Positions 1,581-63,278 of a stretch of DNA of 64,000 bases are shown here, piece after piece. Numbering within the stretch: position 1 is the stretch's first letter; each line of letters begins with the position of its first letter. Under the pieces are notes generated by a model that was not told where the DNA came from, made no database searches, and saw nothing but the letters and a program-made list of their open reading frames with translations. Position numbers and translations under genes: made by a program. The stretch comes from Methanobacteriota archaeon (GTDB lineage Archaea > Halobacteriota > Methanosarcinia > Methanosarcinales > Methanosarcinaceae), in NCBI GenBank assembly GCA_016841625.1, contig JAENYU010000007.1, positions 1 to 64,000 of the forward strand, given 5' to 3'.

Positions 1581-1711
1581 CCGCTTTTGAGTTTAATTGT
1601 GATTTAACCGGGTTCTAAACTGCAGAAAGAATGGGAGTTTAAGCCCTAGGACCGGAATACCGAAACAATTTTAATTTTTCAAGGCGTCAGGGAAAAGGCG
1701 GAAGCAAATCA

Positions 1712-1737
1712 ATAACTATAAGCAGTTTAATAGTTAT
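1712..1737. promoter_or_regulatory. 8-bp inverted repeat upstream of cooC
   Basis: ATAACTAT and ATAGTTAT form a perfect inverted repeat with a 10-nt centre, 60 bp before the CooC gene in an AT-rich stretch. It could be an operator overlapping the promoter. Function is inferred from position only. Confidence 0.3.
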
Positions 1738-1783: not shown

Positions 1784-1790
1784 AGGGGGA
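1784..1790 (+). promoter_or_regulatory. Shine-Dalgarno site deciding the ATA start of cooC
   Basis: AGGGGGA ends 7 nt before the ATA codon at 1798. No canonical start codon lies in frame between the upstream stop and the P-loop. Confidence 0.6.
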
Positions 1791-1797
1791 ATTCCTT

Positions 1798-2610
1798 ATA
1801 AAAATAGCAATTACCGGAAAAGGCGGCGTTGGAAAGACAACTCTTTCAGGTACCCTGGCGAGAATGCTTGCAAGAGAAGGGTACGAGGTACTGGCAATCG
1901 ATGCGGACCCGGACATGAACCTGGCTTCTTCACTCGGGGTTGAGAACCCCCCGAAGCCCCTGACAGAGTACAAGGACCTGATCCAGGAACGGGCCGGGAC
2001 GGAAGGAGGAGCTTTTATCTATAACCCGAAGGTCGACGACATCGCCGGCAAATACGGGGTCATCGGGCCCGACGGGGTCAGGATGCTCGTCATGGGCACT
2101 GTGGATAGGGGAGGCAGCGGGTGCATGTGCCCGGCTTCGGCATTCCTCAGGGCACTCCTTCGCCACCTGATGCTGAAAGAAAAAAGCGCCGTGATCCTGG
2201 ACATGGAAGCCGGAATCGAGCACCTGGGAAGGGGCACCACCCGGGGCATGGACCTTATGATCGTGGTTGTGGAACCCGGGGCGAGGTCCCTGGAAACCGC
2301 AGAGCGGATCAAGAAGCTCTCCTCGGAAATCGGAGTCAATAACCTCGCAGCCGTCGTAAACAAAGGTGGGTCCGGGAAAGTTATTGAAAAGCTCGAAGAG
2401 CTCGGCATCCCGGTCCTCGGGGAAATTCCCTTCGACACCCAGCTTATGCATGCGGACCTGGAAAAACAGGCTCCCATTGACGTAGGGGGGGAAGCCGTGG
2501 AAGCCATCGGCAAGATCAAGGAAAAGCTGATGGTAATCGTTGAAGAAATCCAGGCCGAAAAAAAGAAAGAGAATGAAAAAAAAGAGAATGAAAAGAAAGT
2601 GGATAAGTGA
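1798..2610 (+). CDS. cooC: CooC-type nickel-insertion ATPase (ATA start)
   Basis: MinD/NifH-fold ATPase of the CooC family, which helps load nickel into carbon monoxide dehydrogenase/acetyl-CoA synthase. The deviant Walker A motif GKGGVGKTT lies at residues 7-15, followed by IDADPDMNLASSLGV, and a CMC motif (Cys109, Cys111) matches the CxC metal site of CooC dimers. The first ATG in frame (1864) would delete the whole P-loop. The frame is open back to a stop at 1771 with no ATG, GTG or TTG. The only sensible start is ATA at 1798, 7 nt after an AGGGGGA ribosome site, giving the usual family N-terminus (M)KIAITGKGG. The C-terminus is a Lys/Glu-rich tail with a repeated NEKK unit. No CODH genes are in the window. 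Confidence 0.87.
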   Translation: MKIAITGKGGVGKTTLSGTLARMLAREGYEVLAIDADPDMNLASSLGVENPPKPLTEYKDLIQERAGTEGGAFIYNPKVDDIAGKYGVIGPDGVRMLVMGTVDRGGSGCMCPASAFLRALLRHLMLKEKSAVILDMEAGIEHLGRGTTRGMDLMIVVVEPGARSLETAERIKKLSSEIGVNNLAAVVNKGGSGKVIEKLEELGIPVLGEIPFDTQLMHADLEKQAPIDVGGEAVEAIGKIKEKLMVIVEEIQAEKKKENEKKENEKKVDK

Positions 2611-3366: not shown

Positions 3367-3594
3367 TGTGCAACCCTCATGTTCCCCGAATTGGGTTCTA
3401 TCGGGACTCCCGTATAATTCATTATTCATTTTTCATGAATGTTTTTAGAACATGGATAGAGGCTTTAGTCCCTGTTTCTGAGGTTTATATTTTTCCCTAT
3501 TCTACTATTATTGAATTATATGGGTCATGTCTTATAATATTATAGTTCGGAAACCGGAATACCGGGCTAGAGATCCGTAAGAGCGTGAATTAAA

Positions 3595-3725
3595 ACCAAC
3601 CTGCAGGTGCAGCAATCTCGGGAGTAACGAGCTGTAGCGGGGCAATCCGCATGGGTAACAAGCTATAGAGCGCGGAGCAACACGCATGTGCAACGACCGT
3701 GGTGCAACAGGCCGCAGGTCTGAAA
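3595..3725. repeat. Degenerate GCAAC/GTAAC repeat tract
   Basis: The spacer between the two TPR genes (3430-3795) is AT-rich near the first gene. From about 3600 it then holds seven spaced copies of a GCAAC, GTAAC or GCAAT core at irregular 13-20 nt intervals, alternating with CGCATG or CCGTGG. No ORF fits. Purpose unknown; it may be a degenerate tandem repeat. Confidence 0.35.
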
Positions 3726-3795
3726 TTCCCGGGTGAGGGAAAACTCAAGCATAAAGCCCCGGACTCGAAACTCTGTCAGAAATTTTTACAAAAAT

Positions 3796-12304: not shown

Positions 12305-14200
12305 ATATATAAGGTTCAAAAAATAGCTATCCTACTTATAACATTAATTATGATTGTTTTGCCTGCATCTGCTGCAACAAAAATGTACACAATAGATGCG
12401 GATTTTAATGAAGGGGAATTAAACGGCGTCAATTATGACGTTTCGGACCAGTTACAGCTGGATGAAAATCCTACAACATACCCCTCGATGTGGATAGCAA
12501 ATGCAGGAGAAGATACTTTATCGAAATTTGATACAACAACAGGTGAGGAACTCGCACGTTATCGTACGTGGTACCAGGGAAACACACACGACGCCTGGAG
12601 CGGGCCTGCTCCTTCAAGGACTGCAGTAGATGCTGATGGTAACGTGTATGTTGCTAACCGTCATTTCGACGGTAAACCGGCATCAGTTATGAAGGTGCTG
12701 GTAGACGACTGGATTGACAGGAACGGAAACGGGGTACTCGATACATCGGTCGACTCAAATGGAGACGGAAAAATTGGCTCTACCGAGATCCTTCCAATGA
12801 CGGATACCAATCATAACGGGGTTGTCAATCCCGACGAAATAGTGGATGAAAGGATTGCCTGGATCGTGCAGGTCGGAAACCCCGACGGTTTGGGAAGGTC
12901 CCTTGCGATAGACCCGGACGGAAATATCTGGTTAGGACTGTATAACTCTAGATGCTATTATAAGCTTGACCCGACGGACGGTTCGGTTCTTGCCGGGCCT
13001 ATCGACGTAAGCCCGAATACTCCATACGGGGCTCTCGTTGACAAAGACGGGATCCTCTGGGGAGCTTCCCTGAGTACTAACTTGCTCAAGCTCGATACAA
13101 AAACAAATACGACGTTAGACGTTTATTCCGGGCCTGACAGTACTTACGGGATCGCAATCGGGAACGATAAAGTTTACATGGCTTCACAGTCAGGCAATAC
13201 ATATGTGGAGTTTGACCCGGTAAGTGAAACTTTCAGCAGACCCGCATCCACGAGGTTCTCAGCACTGGGAATAGCAGTCGATTCAGCCGGAAACATTGTA
13301 GCCGGAAGTTCGAGTGGGTACTGTGCCAAGTTCAAGCCGGACGGGACTTTGATATGGAATGTCGGAGCCAACCCTTACAATGAAATCAGAGGCATAGTCA
13401 TCGATTCTGATGATAACGTCTGGGCAGTCCACCGTGCCGTAAACAAGATCTCCAAATACCAGGGATCAGATGGGGCTCACCTCGGGACCTACGATACGGG
13501 GCGCTATCCGTACACCTACTCTGATGCAACCGGGCTTGGACTCAGGGCTTCAATGACTCCGACCGGAACCTGGAAGGCAGTCTATGATAGCGGGAGCGAT
13601 GACACGTCATGGGGAACTGTTTCCTGGAGTGAAAATGTACCCACAGGAGCAGGCATAGAGATAAAAGTAAGGACCTCAAACACGGAAGAAGTACTGGCTA
13701 CCCAGACTTACCAGGCAGTTGTAAACGGCGCAGATCTTTTGGCTTCAGGACGTTATATACAGGTGATGGCAACGTTAACCGCGAGCCCGGCAGACCAATC
13801 CCCCATTCTGCATGACCTCAGTGTAACGGAAAAAGAGCCACCAGTCACATTGGAAGCAGACGCCGGCGGTCCGTATACAATCGTGGTAGGGAATAACCTG
13901 AACCTTGATGGTTCCAACAGTATTGGAAATATTGTTTTGTATGAGTGGGACCTGGATCAGGACGGGACATACGACTACAACAGCAGTACTTCGACCTACC
14001 TGACATCCTTCTTCAATACCTCGGGCGATTATTCGGTGACGCTGCGTGTAACAGATGATGCAGGGAATACTGACACAGATATCGCTACTGTAGAAGTGAA
14101 AGTGAAAGTGAAAGTGGATGTCCCCGAATTCTCGACCGTAGCAGTCCCCATGGTCGCCATCCTGGGATTAGCCTTTGTTTTCATGCGCAGGAAGGACTGA
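12305..14200 (+). CDS. PEF-CTERM cell-surface protein with beta-propeller and PKD domain
   Basis: About 631 residues. The frame upstream of the first ATG (12350) encodes an excellent signal peptide (positively charged start, then IAILLITLIMIVLPASA) that a start at 12350 would truncate. No ATG, GTG or TTG is in frame there. ATA at 12305, 7 nt from a strong ribosome site, is the likely start. A one-base deletion in the A-run at 12317-12322 after an ATG at 12300 is the alternative. Middle: NHL/SMP-30-like repeats (AIDPDGNIWLG, AVDSAGNIVAG) interrupted near residue 130 by EF-hand/dockerin-like DRNGNGVLD and DTNHNGVVNPDEI. Then a PKD domain (YEWDLDQDGTYDY). C-terminus PEFSTVAVPMVAILGLAFVF plus MRRKD is a PEF-CTERM sorting signal. 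Exported and anchored by an archaeosortase. Confidence 0.83.
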   Translation: MYKVQKIAILLITLIMIVLPASAATKMYTIDADFNEGELNGVNYDVSDQLQLDENPTTYPSMWIANAGEDTLSKFDTTTGEELARYRTWYQGNTHDAWSGPAPSRTAVDADGNVYVANRHFDGKPASVMKVLVDDWIDRNGNGVLDTSVDSNGDGKIGSTEILPMTDTNHNGVVNPDEIVDERIAWIVQVGNPDGLGRSLAIDPDGNIWLGLYNSRCYYKLDPTDGSVLAGPIDVSPNTPYGALVDKDGILWGASLSTNLLKLDTKTNTTLDVYSGPDSTYGIAIGNDKVYMASQSGNTYVEFDPVSETFSRPASTRFSALGIAVDSAGNIVAGSSSGYCAKFKPDGTLIWNVGANPYNEIRGIVIDSDDNVWAVHRAVNKISKYQGSDGAHLGTYDTGRYPYTYSDATGLGLRASMTPTGTWKAVYDSGSDDTSWGTVSWSENVPTGAGIEIKVRTSNTEEVLATQTYQAVVNGADLLASGRYIQVMATLTASPADQSPILHDLSVTEKEPPVTLEADAGGPYTIVVGNNLNLDGSNSIGNIVLYEWDLDQDGTYDYNSSTSTYLTSFFNTSGDYSVTLRVTDDAGNTDTDIATVEVKVKVKVDVPEFSTVAVPMVAILGLAFVFMRRKD

Positions 14201-15327: not shown

Positions 15328-17898
15328 TTAAGATCTCCCCTTTTTCCATTTAAAATACAGTTTGACTATCTCACTTAAGTTCACTCCTACACCACAAAAG
15401 GAAGGATCTATGGTAACAACATTGTTTATTTTTTCAAACAACGTCTCTTCGGAATCGGATTCGTTCGCAATCTCTTGCAATTTTTGAAGTGTCTCAAAAA
15501 TTTCCATTCCATATTTTTTATTTATTTCCGTATTTCGCAGTATTTCCTTAACCAGTTTCATCATACTGCTGTCATTGATAACCGTTCCGAGAAGCTCACT
15601 TACATTATACTCTTTATCAGAACCGTCAGGCATGTACTCTTCAGTTCCTTTAAGCTCCAGCTTGACCAGATGCTTATAGCTCACAGTTACTTCCGGATCA
15701 TCAGGCAACGGGATTTTTTCGACAGCTTTTAATTTTTCAAAACTGTTGTTAATTTCCCGGAAGTTTTGAAGGATAACCGCAAAATAATCCCTTTTTTGAG
15801 CTCCATTTACGTAAATACTGATTCTTCTGGCGTCATTATCAGATTTGATCACAGCGGTAGCACTGAAAGCCTTAGCCTCAAGGACCACCCCCGTCCGCCA
15901 GCGCAGATCGCCTTTTATATCCATGTTCATCTTCACGATAAAACGGGGCATTACGGAAGGAGGCAGGAAATCATAATCAATGATAAACTTCAGGGCACTC
16001 CCATCATCAAATTCAAAATCAGGCTGCTGAATTTCCAGAAGAGCAGGAAGGAGCACAGTGCTGCTATCAAGTTCATAGGAGAGTTCAAATTTTTTCATCA
16101 AACTAAGGATAAAACCGTACTGATCGGGAGGATAATAGAATTTTTCCCCATTATTTTCCTTCAAAATCTCCGCGAACATGTCAAGTTTCAGGACTCCACC
16201 GGAACTTGCAACTTCCTTTGAGTTAACCATTCTATACACTGCATTGGTTACCCATTCAGGGTCCAGAACATGTGTATTCAGGAGAGGTATATCCTTAAAG
16301 TGCAGTATCACCCCCAGGTCGTGAAGAAAACCAACAAGCGTATTTTGTTCGGATTCGCCCTTTATCCCTTCTTCATCACACATCAGTTTATAGTCATTAT
16401 ACTGGATGAAATTACAGTGTTCACACGCATCCCCATCCTCAACATCAGGATTGCAATTCGGACACATTTCTTCAAGCCTGCTTTTGACATTGAACCAGCT
16501 TTTAGCCCACATGACCTCCAGATGCCGGACCTTTGTCAGTTCCTCTTCCAGATTTTTAGAAAACTCTCCTATTCCCTCTTCCGATTTGCAGGACAAACGG
16601 TAAAAACCCCTGATAGAAGGATACTTTTCCAGCAGAAACTTTCGGTTCAGGTCAAACCCGGGGTTTTCATCAACCTTATTGATCACAACCAGAACCTGGG
16701 AATCCCCACCAAAAGTTCCAATGAGTTTAAGCCAGTACTCGGGCTTTTCGTCCTTCCTCCCGTCCAGCACCAGAATATAAAGGCTCCTTTTGGACAAAAA
16801 AAACTGGTGTGTAGCGTGCATGATCTCCTGCCCACCAAAGTCCCAGAAATTAGCTTTGATTTCCCGCTCCCCATTTTTAACGGATAATTTCCGGATGTTA
16901 ATACCCTGCGTTTGAGGCTCATTTCCATCAACCTCTTCCCCGAAAATCCGCTTTCTCAGCGAAGTTTTGCCTGAACCACCTTCACCAACCAACAAAACTT
17001 TAACTTCATTCAACGGTTCTTTCTCACCTTCTAGTGACTTGAAATAATTGACAACTGCCTCCCTGCCCTGTTTCACAATCTCCACAGGAGGATTTTCGAG
17101 AGGGTTTCCTTCTAAAAATATTGAATTCGATTTCCACCTATTTTCCAAATTTATATCCAGACCCAATTCCAAAATTTCCAGAGGCAAAGAAGAAAGTTGA
17201 TTAGAAGATAGATCAAGTTGTGTAAGATTTTCCAATTTGGAAATTTCTGGTGGGAGGGAAGAAAGTTGATTGGAAGAGAGGTCAAGTTGTACAAGGTATT
17301 TCAACTCAGAGATTTCTGGAGGCAAGGAAAATAAGTGATTGTTGGATAGATCAAGTTGTGTAAGATTTTTCATCTCAGAAATTTCCGGTGGCAGGGAAGA
17401 AAGTTGATTGTAAGATAAGTCAAGTTGCATAAGATTTTTCAACTTAGAAATTTCCGGTAGCAGGGATGAAAGTCTATTGTTAGATAAGTTAAGCTGCGTA
17501 AGGTTTATCAACTCGGAAATTTCCGATGTTAAGGATGAGAGTTGATTGTAAGATAAGTTAAGTTGAGTAAGATTTTTCAACTCGGAAATTTCCGATGGCA
17601 GGGATGAGAGTTGATTAGAAGAGATTTCAAATTGTTCAAGATTTTTCAACTCGGAAATTCCTATAGGTAGTGAAGAAAGTAGATTGGAAGATATGTCAAG
17701 TTGCAAAATGTTTTTTAACTCCGATATTTTAGAAGGCAGCGAAGTCAATTTATTATCAGAGATATCAAGTTCAGTCAGATTTTTCAACTCAGAAATTTCA
17801 GAAGGCAAAGAAATGAGATTTTTGGAAGATAGGTCTAGTAAGGTTACTTTACTCCTTTGAGCCTTTATAATCAGATCTTTAATCTCATTTGATTCCAT
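15328..17898 (-). CDS. Roco family protein: LRR-Roc GTPase-COR
   Basis: About 856 residues. Residues 20-240 hold nine near-perfect 23-residue leucine-rich repeats (consensus LPxEISELKNLTQLDLSSNQLSS). The Roc GTPase domain follows, with P-loop GEGGSGKTS (near 300), switch DFGGQE and NKVD. The rest is a COR domain, the dimerisation module of Roco proteins. A Cys-rich insert CPNCNPDVEDGDACEHC between Roc and COR looks like a zinc ribbon. No kinase domain. Roco proteins from methanosarcinas serve as structural models for human LRRK2, but their cellular role is unknown. I take the ATG at 17898; a GTG nine codons upstream is possible. An IS element ends 70 bp upstream. Confidence 0.92.
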   Translation of the reverse strand: MESNEIKDLIIKAQRSKVTLLDLSSKNLISLPSEISELKNLTELDISDNKLTSLPSKISELKNILQLDISSNLLSSLPIGISELKNLEQFEISSNQLSSLPSEISELKNLTQLNLSYNQLSSLTSEISELINLTQLNLSNNRLSSLLPEISKLKNLMQLDLSYNQLSSLPPEISEMKNLTQLDLSNNHLFSLPPEISELKYLVQLDLSSNQLSSLPPEISKLENLTQLDLSSNQLSSLPLEILELGLDINLENRWKSNSIFLEGNPLENPPVEIVKQGREAVVNYFKSLEGEKEPLNEVKVLLVGEGGSGKTSLRKRIFGEEVDGNEPQTQGINIRKLSVKNGEREIKANFWDFGGQEIMHATHQFFLSKRSLYILVLDGRKDEKPEYWLKLIGTFGGDSQVLVVINKVDENPGFDLNRKFLLEKYPSIRGFYRLSCKSEEGIGEFSKNLEEELTKVRHLEVMWAKSWFNVKSRLEEMCPNCNPDVEDGDACEHCNFIQYNDYKLMCDEEGIKGESEQNTLVGFLHDLGVILHFKDIPLLNTHVLDPEWVTNAVYRMVNSKEVASSGGVLKLDMFAEILKENNGEKFYYPPDQYGFILSLMKKFELSYELDSSTVLLPALLEIQQPDFEFDDGSALKFIIDYDFLPPSVMPRFIVKMNMDIKGDLRWRTGVVLEAKAFSATAVIKSDNDARRISIYVNGAQKRDYFAVILQNFREINNSFEKLKAVEKIPLPDDPEVTVSYKHLVKLELKGTEEYMPDGSDKEYNVSELLGTVINDSSMMKLVKEILRNTEINKKYGMEIFETLQKLQEIANESDSEETLFEKINNVVTIDPSFCGVGVNLSEIVKLYFKWKKGRS

Positions 17899-17968
17899 GT
17901 ATAATCCCTGCCTCACTGTCCTCACGAGTTTGCCATATAACCACTGAAAAATTCAATATAGCATCTTA

Positions 17969-22060: not shown

Positions 22061-22248
22061 ACACATTTAAATACTTATGGGTAATTGCTTTCTTTAACTT
22101 GCTAAATCTACGATAACTATATATATCTATAAGAAATGGGCATTTCGGATTAAATCAGGATTTCACTTCATGACTTCATTTTTCACCATTTCATCCCTGC
22201 GGCAAAAAGGAGGTTTTCGACATTACTAAACACATAAATGCTTGCGCA

Positions 22249-23187
22249 ATGGACAACAGGCAGACCGGGGAGATCACCCTGAACGACCCGTATACCGTGC
22301 CTTACAGAGGTATATATGCGGTCTGCGATGCAAAGAACGAATATGCGGAGATTATTGAACATTCCAACTGCTACAGCGGAGCTTCCTGGTCTCTTTACCA
22401 CTATGCAAAAGCTCCCCTTATCCTGAAAGCCCGGTCAAACGGGAACATGATTCGCTACTACGTGAAAACCGGAACCTCAAATCTCGAACTCAAGCCCTCA
22501 GTTGCCGCCGCAGGCATCGAATCCGTGGTCGTGGAAGGGGATGAGGTGCAGATTACGTACGCAGGGCTCGGAGGCGGAGGGGTCGGAGCGACCCGCTGCC
22601 GGGCGTTTGCAGACGGGGTTTTACGCTATAAGCTGACCGAATCCGGAGGAGAACGCTGCGCAAAAGGCACTGTCGTTGTTCCTCGCCGGGACCGCGTCCT
22701 GATCGGCATCGATGACACGGATTCCAAGGACACAGGGGCCACCTGGACCCTGACCCACAACATAGCAAGCGAACTGGACTGCCCGGATGCGGTCTACCTT
22801 TCCCATGCCCTTGTCCAGCTCTTCCCGGTCCCTGAAAAGACCCAGAACTGCATGTCCACGGTACTGGAGTTCGGGTGCACGGATGAAAAAGCAAAGGAAC
22901 GGCTGGTCAAAGCCTTCAAAAAGGCCCTTGAAAAATACAGCGCTTCCAGCGAAACCGGGATGGTCGTCCTCACGGACTTTTACGCCCACGAGCTCTACGA
23001 ATACAGCAACCGCTGCCGGACAGAACGGGTCTCGAAAGAATATGCCCTTAGCTGTGCCGAAGAAAACGGTGTTGAAGTCATCCTGGACGGAAACGGCGTA
23101 ATCGGAGCCATGGGTTCCCTGCCCTGGTTCGGAAGGCCCCAGGAATCAATAGTCCCGGGCACCGAAATCAAACCGCTTATCGATTAA
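22249..23187 (+). CDS. Methanogenesis marker protein 11
   Basis: 312 residues. Recognised from the block PYRGIYAVCDAKNEYAEI near the N-terminus, GAGLGG-like YAGLGGGGVGATRCRA, and the central GIDDTDSKDTGATWTL motif shared with TiaS-like nucleotide-binding proteins. Found almost only in methanogens; function unknown but possibly in cofactor or RNA modification. Start is uncertain: the ATG at 22249 has no ribosome site, while a perfect AAGGAGG (22207-22213) lies 8 nt before an in-frame ATT at 22222, and no ATG, GTG or TTG is in frame between. Followed after about 100 nt by an IorA-like gene on the same strand. Confidence 0.82.
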   Translation: MDNRQTGEITLNDPYTVPYRGIYAVCDAKNEYAEIIEHSNCYSGASWSLYHYAKAPLILKARSNGNMIRYYVKTGTSNLELKPSVAAAGIESVVVEGDEVQITYAGLGGGGVGATRCRAFADGVLRYKLTESGGERCAKGTVVVPRRDRVLIGIDDTDSKDTGATWTLTHNIASELDCPDAVYLSHALVQLFPVPEKTQNCMSTVLEFGCTDEKAKERLVKAFKKALEKYSASSETGMVVLTDFYAHELYEYSNRCRTERVSKEYALSCAEENGVEVILDGNGVIGAMGSLPWFGRPQESIVPGTEIKPLID

Positions 23188-61724: not shown

Positions 61725-62753
61725 TGAAGCGGATAGGGGGAGGCAATCAACAGTAAATCCAACTTCAGTAAAGAGATTGCTCACCCTCTTTTCATTTCTT
61801 ACCAGTTGATGATGCTGGCAGTCACAAAAGTAACTGAGAGAGCGGCACCTTGATCCCGAACTTCGCGCCATAAAAAATATTACAATTTTTATAATGCTTA
61901 AACCATAAATGATAAGCACTATAAAAGCCCTGCACCCGAACTGGGCTACCTTGATCCCTGTATTAATTAATACCTGCAAACTTTTTTGATCTCTTTTCAT
62001 ATCAGGGTTCTTACCGGCTTCGAGCCGCCGGCTATAATAGTCATCGGAATGTCTAAAAAAATTATAATGGCCAAAAAAAGGTATCTGTATGACTAAAAAA
62101 GTTAGTTGAATGACTTTTTAGACACTGAGATTCTCTGAAAGGAAAGAACTGGCACTTTAAATGGTTCGGAATATTCCCTTTAGCAACCCAATAAAATAAA
62201 TAAATATGCATAAAATAATATACATAAAAATAACATTATATAAATCGAGATATTGAACTGCGAGCCCGGGGGCGGTCTCGCAGGTTCCTCGAAAATGGGA
62301 TGGGGTAACGATCTCAAAATTTATAGGGTACAAACCCTGCATGCCGTTTCTCTGCGTAATCAGACGGAAAACGGGGGAGTTCTTAGCCCCCTGGTCCGAA
62401 CCGGTTCAGAGGATACATATCGTATGGGGCAAGCCAGACTTTTTATTCCTGATTCCGGAAAACGTGAGCTTCGGTCAGATATCAGGCTCGGGAGGACTGT
62501 GTGCCGGGGGTATAAAGTACTCCATGAATGGCTCCAGGTTCTGAAGGACTCATGGTTTGAGCAAAGCATTCTGCTGCGGCATAATGCCTGCTAAGACGCC
62601 ATAAGATGAGGGAGCCGTGAAGAAAACATAGTTGCCCTGCCTTTGTCCAGATCAGCGAAAAACAGCGAATGTGGCAGTTTCGCCCCAATTGAAGAACTGG
62701 CGTAAAAAAAGCAGCAAAAAAATCTCTGGAAAAAAAAAGTTTCAGATAAAATA
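61725..62753. other. Long spacer
   Basis: About 1 kb between the two DUF1269-type genes. 62040-62110 has short repeats of GACTAAAAAA and GACTTTTTAG. 62250-62600 is GC-richer with overlapping short frames in two phases, as in decayed coding DNA, but no family is recognised. Nothing firm. Confidence 0.35.
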
Positions 62754-62758
62754 GGAGG
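62754..62758 (+). promoter_or_regulatory. Shine-Dalgarno core before the ATA start of the DUF1269 gene
   Basis: AGGAGGT (62753-62759); its GGAGG core ends 7 nt before ATA at 62766, where the conserved N-terminus begins. Confidence 0.65.
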
Positions 62759-62765
62759 TCTGAAT

Positions 62766-63278
62766 ATAGCAACTCTATCTGTTCTAAAATTTGACACCCC
62801 TGGCGGTGCACAACATACACTCGAAGTGATCGAGGACTTGAGCAAGAGACAACTGATCACCCTGCAGGACGCAGCCATCGTCTCCTGGCCTATGGGTAAA
62901 AAGAAGCCAAAAACAGAACAATTAAGCAGCATGACCGGGGTAGGCGCACTGAGCGGCGCATTCTGGGGCATGCTGTTCGGCATGATATTCCTGATTCCGA
63001 TTTTTGGCATGGTCGTCGGAGCCGCGATGGGGGCGCTGTCAGGTTCCTTTGCCGACGTGGGTATCAGTGATGATTTCATCAAGTCAGTCCGCAGCAAAGT
63101 GACTGAAGGCACCTCAGCCCTCTTTCTACTAACCAGCGATGCCGTGCAGGATAAGGTCGTCGATGCCCTGAAGGACATCAATTTCGAAATTATTGCTTCC
63201 AACCTGTCCGAGGCAGAAGAAGACAAGATGCGGGAGATGTTTGCCGAAGAAGAGGCAGAAGTGGCTCCGGCAGCTTAA
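62766..63278 (+). CDS. DUF1269 glycine-zipper protein (ATA start)
   Basis: 170 residues. The first canonical start in frame (GTG 62826) would cut off the conserved beta-strand and helix (ATLSVLKFDTPGGAQHTLEV) that open every DUF1269 protein. ATA at 62766, 7 nt after GGAGG, restores it. Further blocks: LITLQDAAIVSWPMGKKKPK, a hydrophobic glycine-rich hairpin (GALSGAFWGMLFGMIFLIPI), and DDFIKSVRSKVTEGTSALFL near the end. A stress-associated family of unknown function. Third member of this superfamily in the 51-63 kb stretch. Confidence 0.83.
   Translation: MATLSVLKFDTPGGAQHTLEVIEDLSKRQLITLQDAAIVSWPMGKKKPKTEQLSSMTGVGALSGAFWGMLFGMIFLIPIFGMVVGAAMGALSGSFADVGISDDFIKSVRSKVTEGTSALFLLTSDAVQDKVVDALKDINFEIIASNLSEAEEDKMREMFAEEEAEVAPAA

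Follow-up and report, generated by a model that had tools for sequence, protein, structure and literature searches.

In the 64,000-nucleotide stretch of Methanosarcinaceae DNA analysed here (the window), the gene for CooC, the nickel-insertion ATPase of CODH/ACS, is very likely translated from an ATA codon at position 1798, as one of a group of genes in which Met-tRNAi would initiate at conserved near-cognate codons anchored by strong Shine-Dalgarno (SD) sequences, probably with low yield. That initiation takes place at near-cognate codons is well supported by the comparison of sequences, but a regulatory role for such starts is put forward more cautiously, and methionine as the first residue, the low yield and a selective reason for it are likewise presumed. 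The features of the cooC locus are:

1706..1722, plus strand: probable cooC promoter, BRE/TATA-like (AAATCAATAACTATAAG), the most conserved upstream block in 13 Methanosarcina-type sequences, with a putative function
1784..1790, plus strand: SD of cooC, AGGGGGA, with a duplex energy of −9.4 kcal/mol; of 37 Methanosarcina-type genomes, 35 have its GGGG core with ATH 5–10 nt further on
1798..1800, plus strand: predicted ATA initiation codon of cooC, which is ATA in 34 genomes and ATC in 1, and aligns to the Met of relatives
1798..2610, plus strand: cooC, 270 amino acids, assigned by phmmer to 3kje_A and by a CbiA domain (PF01656)
1816..1839, plus strand: P-loop of CooC, GKGGVGKT, 5′ of the first canonical start codon
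1864..1866, plus strand: first canonical in-frame codon of cooC (ATG); a start here removes the P-loop

The cooC frame opens at 1774, directly after a stop at 1771–1773, and runs on to 2610. A scan from that stop to 1864 bears out the earlier note, which had reported no ATG, GTG or TTG in this part of the frame; none of the eight in-frame codons 5′ of the ATA is canonical, and the ATG at 1864 lies 22 codons 3′ of it. The spacer between the SD and the ATA (1791–1797) is, as had been stated, exactly 7 nt. When read from the ATA, the protein aligns with the solved CooC structure 3kje_A with an E value of 2.5e-45 (phmmer, query residues 2–221 to chain residues 2–226), and the alignment opens residue 2 on residue 2, with the ATA falling on Met1 of 3KJE, in agreement with the claim that this codon yields the N terminus of the family. 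The P-loop is indeed encoded 5′ of 1864, where it would form, with a start at the ATA, residues 7–14 at the extreme N terminus, and the C-X-C metal-binding motif is present, with CMC opposite the CYC of 3KJE. The position of the BRE/TATA-like block predicts a transcript start near 1745, in which case the leader would be about 50 nt long and contain the SD.

The alignment with CooC genes of related strains that the earlier note had called for was made with cooC from 80 contig loci and 29 other whole genomes, together with a family-wide pattern search of 112 genomes for GGGG, a spacer of 5–10 nt and ATA, ATC or ATT (ATG not being allowed), followed by the CooC N terminus. The pattern matched 35 of the 37 Methanosarcina-type genomes, which belong to three genera, and had no match in the remaining genera of that search. 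Retention of ATA or ATC with the same SD in these 35 genomes indicates that neither chance spacing nor sequencing error accounts for the codon at 1798, and supports true AUA initiation, which the earlier note had proposed as one of two readings. In the Methanosarcina-type cooC sequences that were fetched, the start is ATA in all but one, which has ATC, and in 14 of 15 such loci the frame contains no canonical codon from the upstream stop to the ATA; the exception, L008, has two, far 5′ of the SD. The start is also ATA in one further Methanosarcinaceae genome (L017), and three Methanotrichaceae loci have near-cognate starts behind an SD (L035:3001, ATA; L036:642, ATT; L038:3001, ATC). Methanolobus, Methanococcoides, ANME-2 and most Methanothrix carry ATG at this position. 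On a quick tree of CooC the near-cognate state requires four changes, at least two of them forced by well supported branches, so that it had more than one origin, or an early origin followed by loss. In the ATG-bearing relatives L019–L026 and L030–L034, TATAAT is found about 25–30 nt before the cooC ATG and there is no clear SD, suggesting that their cooC mRNA may be leaderless and that the leader and SD of Methanosarcina may be derived.

Four other accounts of the cooC start were weighed. The alternative offered in the earlier note, a G-to-A mutation that damaged the gene, or its variant, a sequencing error, has the ATG of Methanolobus, Methanococcoides, ANME-2 and most Methanothrix in its favor as a possible ancestral start, but it is refuted by conservation of the near-cognate codon in 35 genomes, several of them single-contig, and by the substitutions between cooC and its counterpart in a largely syntenic relative (G003), which number 15, 12 and 70 at the three codon positions and thus indicate a frame under purifying selection; its probability is practically nil. 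It is extremely improbable that translation begins at the ATG at 1864, even though this is the first canonical codon in the frame, because the product would lack a P-loop that aligns residue by residue with 3KJE; in addition, the best SD match for this ATG is weak and far (−3.9 kcal/mol, 11 nt), and the codons before it are conserved as protein in all relatives. A start at another nearby codon, either the second ATA (1804) or CTT (1795), is very unlikely. The ATA at 1804 is kept as codon 3 in G001, where codon 1 is ATC, but it lies 13 nt from the SD and the third codon is ATC in G017 (L092), whereas the codon corresponding to CTT varies by species (CTT, CAA, CTC, CGA or AAT); where the leader differs by one base, it is the ATA at 1798 that stays 6–7 nt from the SD.

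The remaining alternative is that the cooC mRNA is leaderless and GGGGGA is not an SD; TTTATAATC is found at 1767–1775, about 27 nt before the ATA. A TATA-like motif is present here in the window and in several relatives, and in the ATG-bearing relatives TATAAT lies similarly far from the start, with no SD. However, TTTATAATC is lost in L008, L010, L011 and L091 while GGGGG, the spacer and ATA stay, the BRE/TATA-like block at 1706–1722 is better conserved, and all the other near-cognate genes have strong SDs, so that a leaderless transcript is unlikely too. Initiation at the AUA at 1798, positioned by the SD, is the reading adopted below.

The earlier note had named two further genes of the window, at 62766 and 12305, as starting with ATA at the same spacing, and a third good case, methanogenesis marker 11 at 22222, had been overlooked. 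The features concerned are:

12305..12307, plus strand: possible ATA start (candidate) of a PKD/beta-propeller surface protein whose best homologues are 35–38% identical
22209..22213, plus strand: SD core GGAGG of the methanogenesis marker 11 gene, duplex −12.1 kcal/mol, present in all 31 matches to a pattern that required GGAGG
22222..22224, plus strand: predicted ATT initiation codon of marker 11, ATT in 31 of 31 matching genomes
22222..23187, plus strand: gene for methanogenesis marker protein 11 (TIGR03280, E = 7.3e-118), with TiaS-like domains (PF22641, PF08489)
62753..62759, plus strand: SD AGGAGGT of the DUF1269 gene, duplex −11.4 kcal/mol
62766..62768, plus strand: predicted ATA initiation codon of the DUF1269 gene, with a 6-nt spacer, kept in G002, G003 and G023
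62766..63278, plus strand: gene for a DUF1269 protein of 170 amino acids (PF06897, E = 4.5e-38)

The claim holds for the gene at 62766, in which ATA is found in four genomes and none of the 20 in-frame codons 5′ of it is canonical; the frame reads TAG-AAT-ATA in G003 and TGA-GTT-ATA in G023, and these stops two codons before the ATA make an upstream start impossible. Two DUF1269 paralogues carry ATG at the position of the ATA. For 12305, the ATA is present and is preceded in frame by 35 codons free of any canonical start. Its best SD-like match, however, stops just 2 nt short of the ATA, and the starts of the homologues differ and cannot be aligned, so that neither the ATA start nor the cooC-like spacing is confirmed. 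With marker 11, the search pattern allowed ATA and ATC as well as ATT, though not ATG, and an in-frame TGA directly precedes the ATT in 14 of the 31 genomes; relative to G003, the part of the gene that precedes the first shared canonical codon carries 1, 1 and 28 substitutions at the three codon positions. TiaS modifies the tRNA that reads AUA, and it was observed in passing that marker 11, with its TiaS-like domains, itself begins at ATT in every matching genome. Elsewhere in the window, positions 3561–3740 hold intergenic imperfect repeats of the kind GCAAC/GTAACAAGCTGTAG, and 15328–17952 on the minus strand encodes a leucine-rich-repeat protein with an apparent Roc-type GTPase domain, as judged by eye from the translation.

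The three ATA genes of the earlier note, one of them doubtful, are part of a broader phenomenon that extends to other near-cognate codons and to about 2% of the genes compared. A comparison of 1.13 Mb of the Methanosarcina-type source genome with 1.38 Mb of G003 gave 581 orthologue pairs with coding-type substitution, which were screened for protein conservation 5′ of the first canonical start that the two genomes share and then checked for an SD. Twelve pairs have a conserved near-cognate start behind a strong SD: cooC, a lipoprotein and a NifS-like cysteine desulfurase (ATA); marker 11, a Nudix protein and a sensor kinase (ATT); a polyketide-cyclase-like protein, AblB and RNA polymerase B″ (rpoB″) (ATC); a POR-like oxidoreductase and a small protein (CTG); and a DUF362/ferredoxin protein (ACG). 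With the gene at 62766 these make 13 genes, 7 of which were examined in two genomes only. Extrapolation to the whole genome would suggest about 40–70 such genes. In the longer cases, the codons that lie between the near-cognate start and the first shared canonical one have changed mostly at third positions, as in the POR-like gene (2, 0 and 11 substitutions by codon position); for rpoB″, the NifS-like gene, the lipoprotein, the sensor kinase and the Nudix gene the counts are too few or not clearly third-position, and these assignments rest on the SD, the family N terminus or a signal peptide.

Candidates were dropped when a shared ATG lay downstream (a PHP gene with AGG), when a shared ATG was present (a sensor kinase candidate with CTG), when an ATG followed six codons on (Elp3, ATC), when each genome had a separate canonical start (several pairs), or when one copy was truncated (one pair). 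Counting SD lengths was abandoned as a screen because it was too noisy, internal SD-like sites being common and 16.9% of the in-frame codons behind them being near-cognate by chance. A small lipoprotein gene (G000 C53, about 32594) has ATG in the source genome and CTG at the syntenic site in G003.

Wider conservation was followed, for marker 11, DUF362, the POR-like gene and rpoB″ as for cooC, by pattern searches that asked which start codon occurs. The POR-like gene has CTG in 19 of 19 genomes under a pattern that permitted any NTG, ATG, GTG and TTG included. In rpoB″ each of the four genomes of the genus has an ATC start, and the family profile opens at the N terminus that this codon gives; no ATG or GTG form with the same N terminus was found in 112 genomes, those of other genera not matching the N-terminal pattern. 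The DUF362 gene has ACG in 10 genomes and ATG in 15, with place and SD identical, and in four of the ACG genomes (G023, G129, G103 and G112) an in-frame stop lies directly 5′ of the ACG. This natural exchange is the clearest sign, at the level of sequence, that a near-cognate codon may do the job of ATG.

The SDs of the 13 near-cognate genes are strong, their median duplex energy being −11.3 kcal/mol as compared with −5.6 kcal/mol at the first shared canonical codons of 565 genes (Mann-Whitney p = 9e-7). The comparison is partly biased, since the SD had served to pick out a few of the 13 and not every “first shared canonical” codon is a true start, but strong SDs are seen also in the cases that conservation alone had revealed. 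In the mechanism envisaged, the small subunit with aIF1, aIF1A and aIF2-GTP-Met-tRNAi would be held by AGGGGGA 7 nt 5′ of the cooC AUA, which Met-tRNAi would read with a third-position mismatch. The other conserved genes would start likewise on AUA, AUU, AUC, CUG or ACG, every one of them after an SD far above the usual strength; the mismatch would be at the third position in AUA, AUU and AUC, the first in CUG and the second in ACG. Since aIF1 destabilises initiation complexes on non-AUG mRNA (PMC6237735), the strong SD is a plausible compensation. The genes for aIF1 and the initiator tRNA were not found within the genome stretches taken for comparison.

The likely effect is less protein per mRNA, and selection may use the weak start to hold some proteins low, as suggested by the near-fixed codon in three genes over 19–35 genomes; the alternation of ACG and ATG in DUF362 indicates that this is not always so, the weak start there being simply interchangeable with AUG among species. 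The same alternation favors a reading in which near-cognate initiation is real but the codons reflect neutral drift that strong SDs permit, without significance for regulation or dosage, and to this we give substantial weight, though short of an even chance. Against drift is the absence of ATG in place of the cooC ATA (35 genomes), the marker 11 ATT (31) and the POR-like CTG (19), although one substitution would suffice, a point that for cooC and marker 11 rests on the few unmatched genomes because their patterns excluded ATG. A bolder proposal, which we advance tentatively and would sooner doubt than assert, is that Methanosarcina, and in part Methanotrichaceae, have a selected, genus-wide class of genes that initiate weakly at AUA, AUU, AUC, CUG and ACG, with a core RNA polymerase subunit among their products. 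Strong SDs, and perhaps relaxed start-codon checking (by aIF1, initiator tRNA or rRNA), would make such a class possible, and the identity of the start codon would then tune the expression of genes for metal centres and methanogenesis.

Archaeal genome annotation by the common gene finders essentially uses ATG, GTG and TTG starts, and near-cognate starts would escape it. Should about 2% of Methanosarcina genes indeed begin at other codons, database entries would likely be truncated for dozens of proteins in each genome, among them CooC, which would lack its P-loop. The natural ATG/ACG pairs and the fixed ATA, ATT and CTG starts would also be material for studying how aIF1 and the SD set archaeal start choice.

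Conserved near-cognate starts have precedents. The infC gene of Escherichia coli starts with AUU, through which IF3 is autoregulated, a case that PMC13009471 mentions too. The cooC start resembles it as a conserved near-cognate codon thought to keep expression low, but infC encodes the discriminating factor itself, whereas the product of cooC, from its match to 3KJE, is a metal-insertion ATPase, and autoregulation of the infC type is therefore not expected. We know of no RNA editing in archaea that would convert AUA to AUG. A review of archaeal initiation names AUG, GUG and UUG only (PMC7531240), a Ribo-seq paper on M. mazei gives, solely for new small ORFs, ATG, GTG, TTG and 5% CTG, and a survey of annotated starts in 36 prokaryote groups lists two switches from AUG to CUG and one to AUU among 61,358 (PMC5622118). 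In the open-access literature no report was found of AUA or AUU starts, or of conserved near-cognate starts, in archaea or Methanosarcina. Chloroplast genes with evolutionarily conserved non-AUG starts share the prokaryote-like translation but belong to an organelle (PMC9845219). The closest parallel is Staphylococcus aureus, in which infC, ccpN and citZ start with AUA and cvfC1 with AUU behind strong or extended SDs, yielding about 10% of the AUG level in poor medium in the three genes tested (PMC13009471). The Methanosarcina genes are like that set in their conserved AUA or AUU, unusually strong SD and lack of a canonical start; they differ in that S. aureus is a bacterium with IF3 and four such genes, whereas Methanosarcina is a methane-making archaeon with aIF1, about 2% of the compared genes are involved, and AUC, CUG and ACG occur as well. 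Conserved near-cognate starts with strong SDs are thus already known in bacteria, and what we would call new here is a set that spans an archaeal genus and comprises five near-cognate codons.
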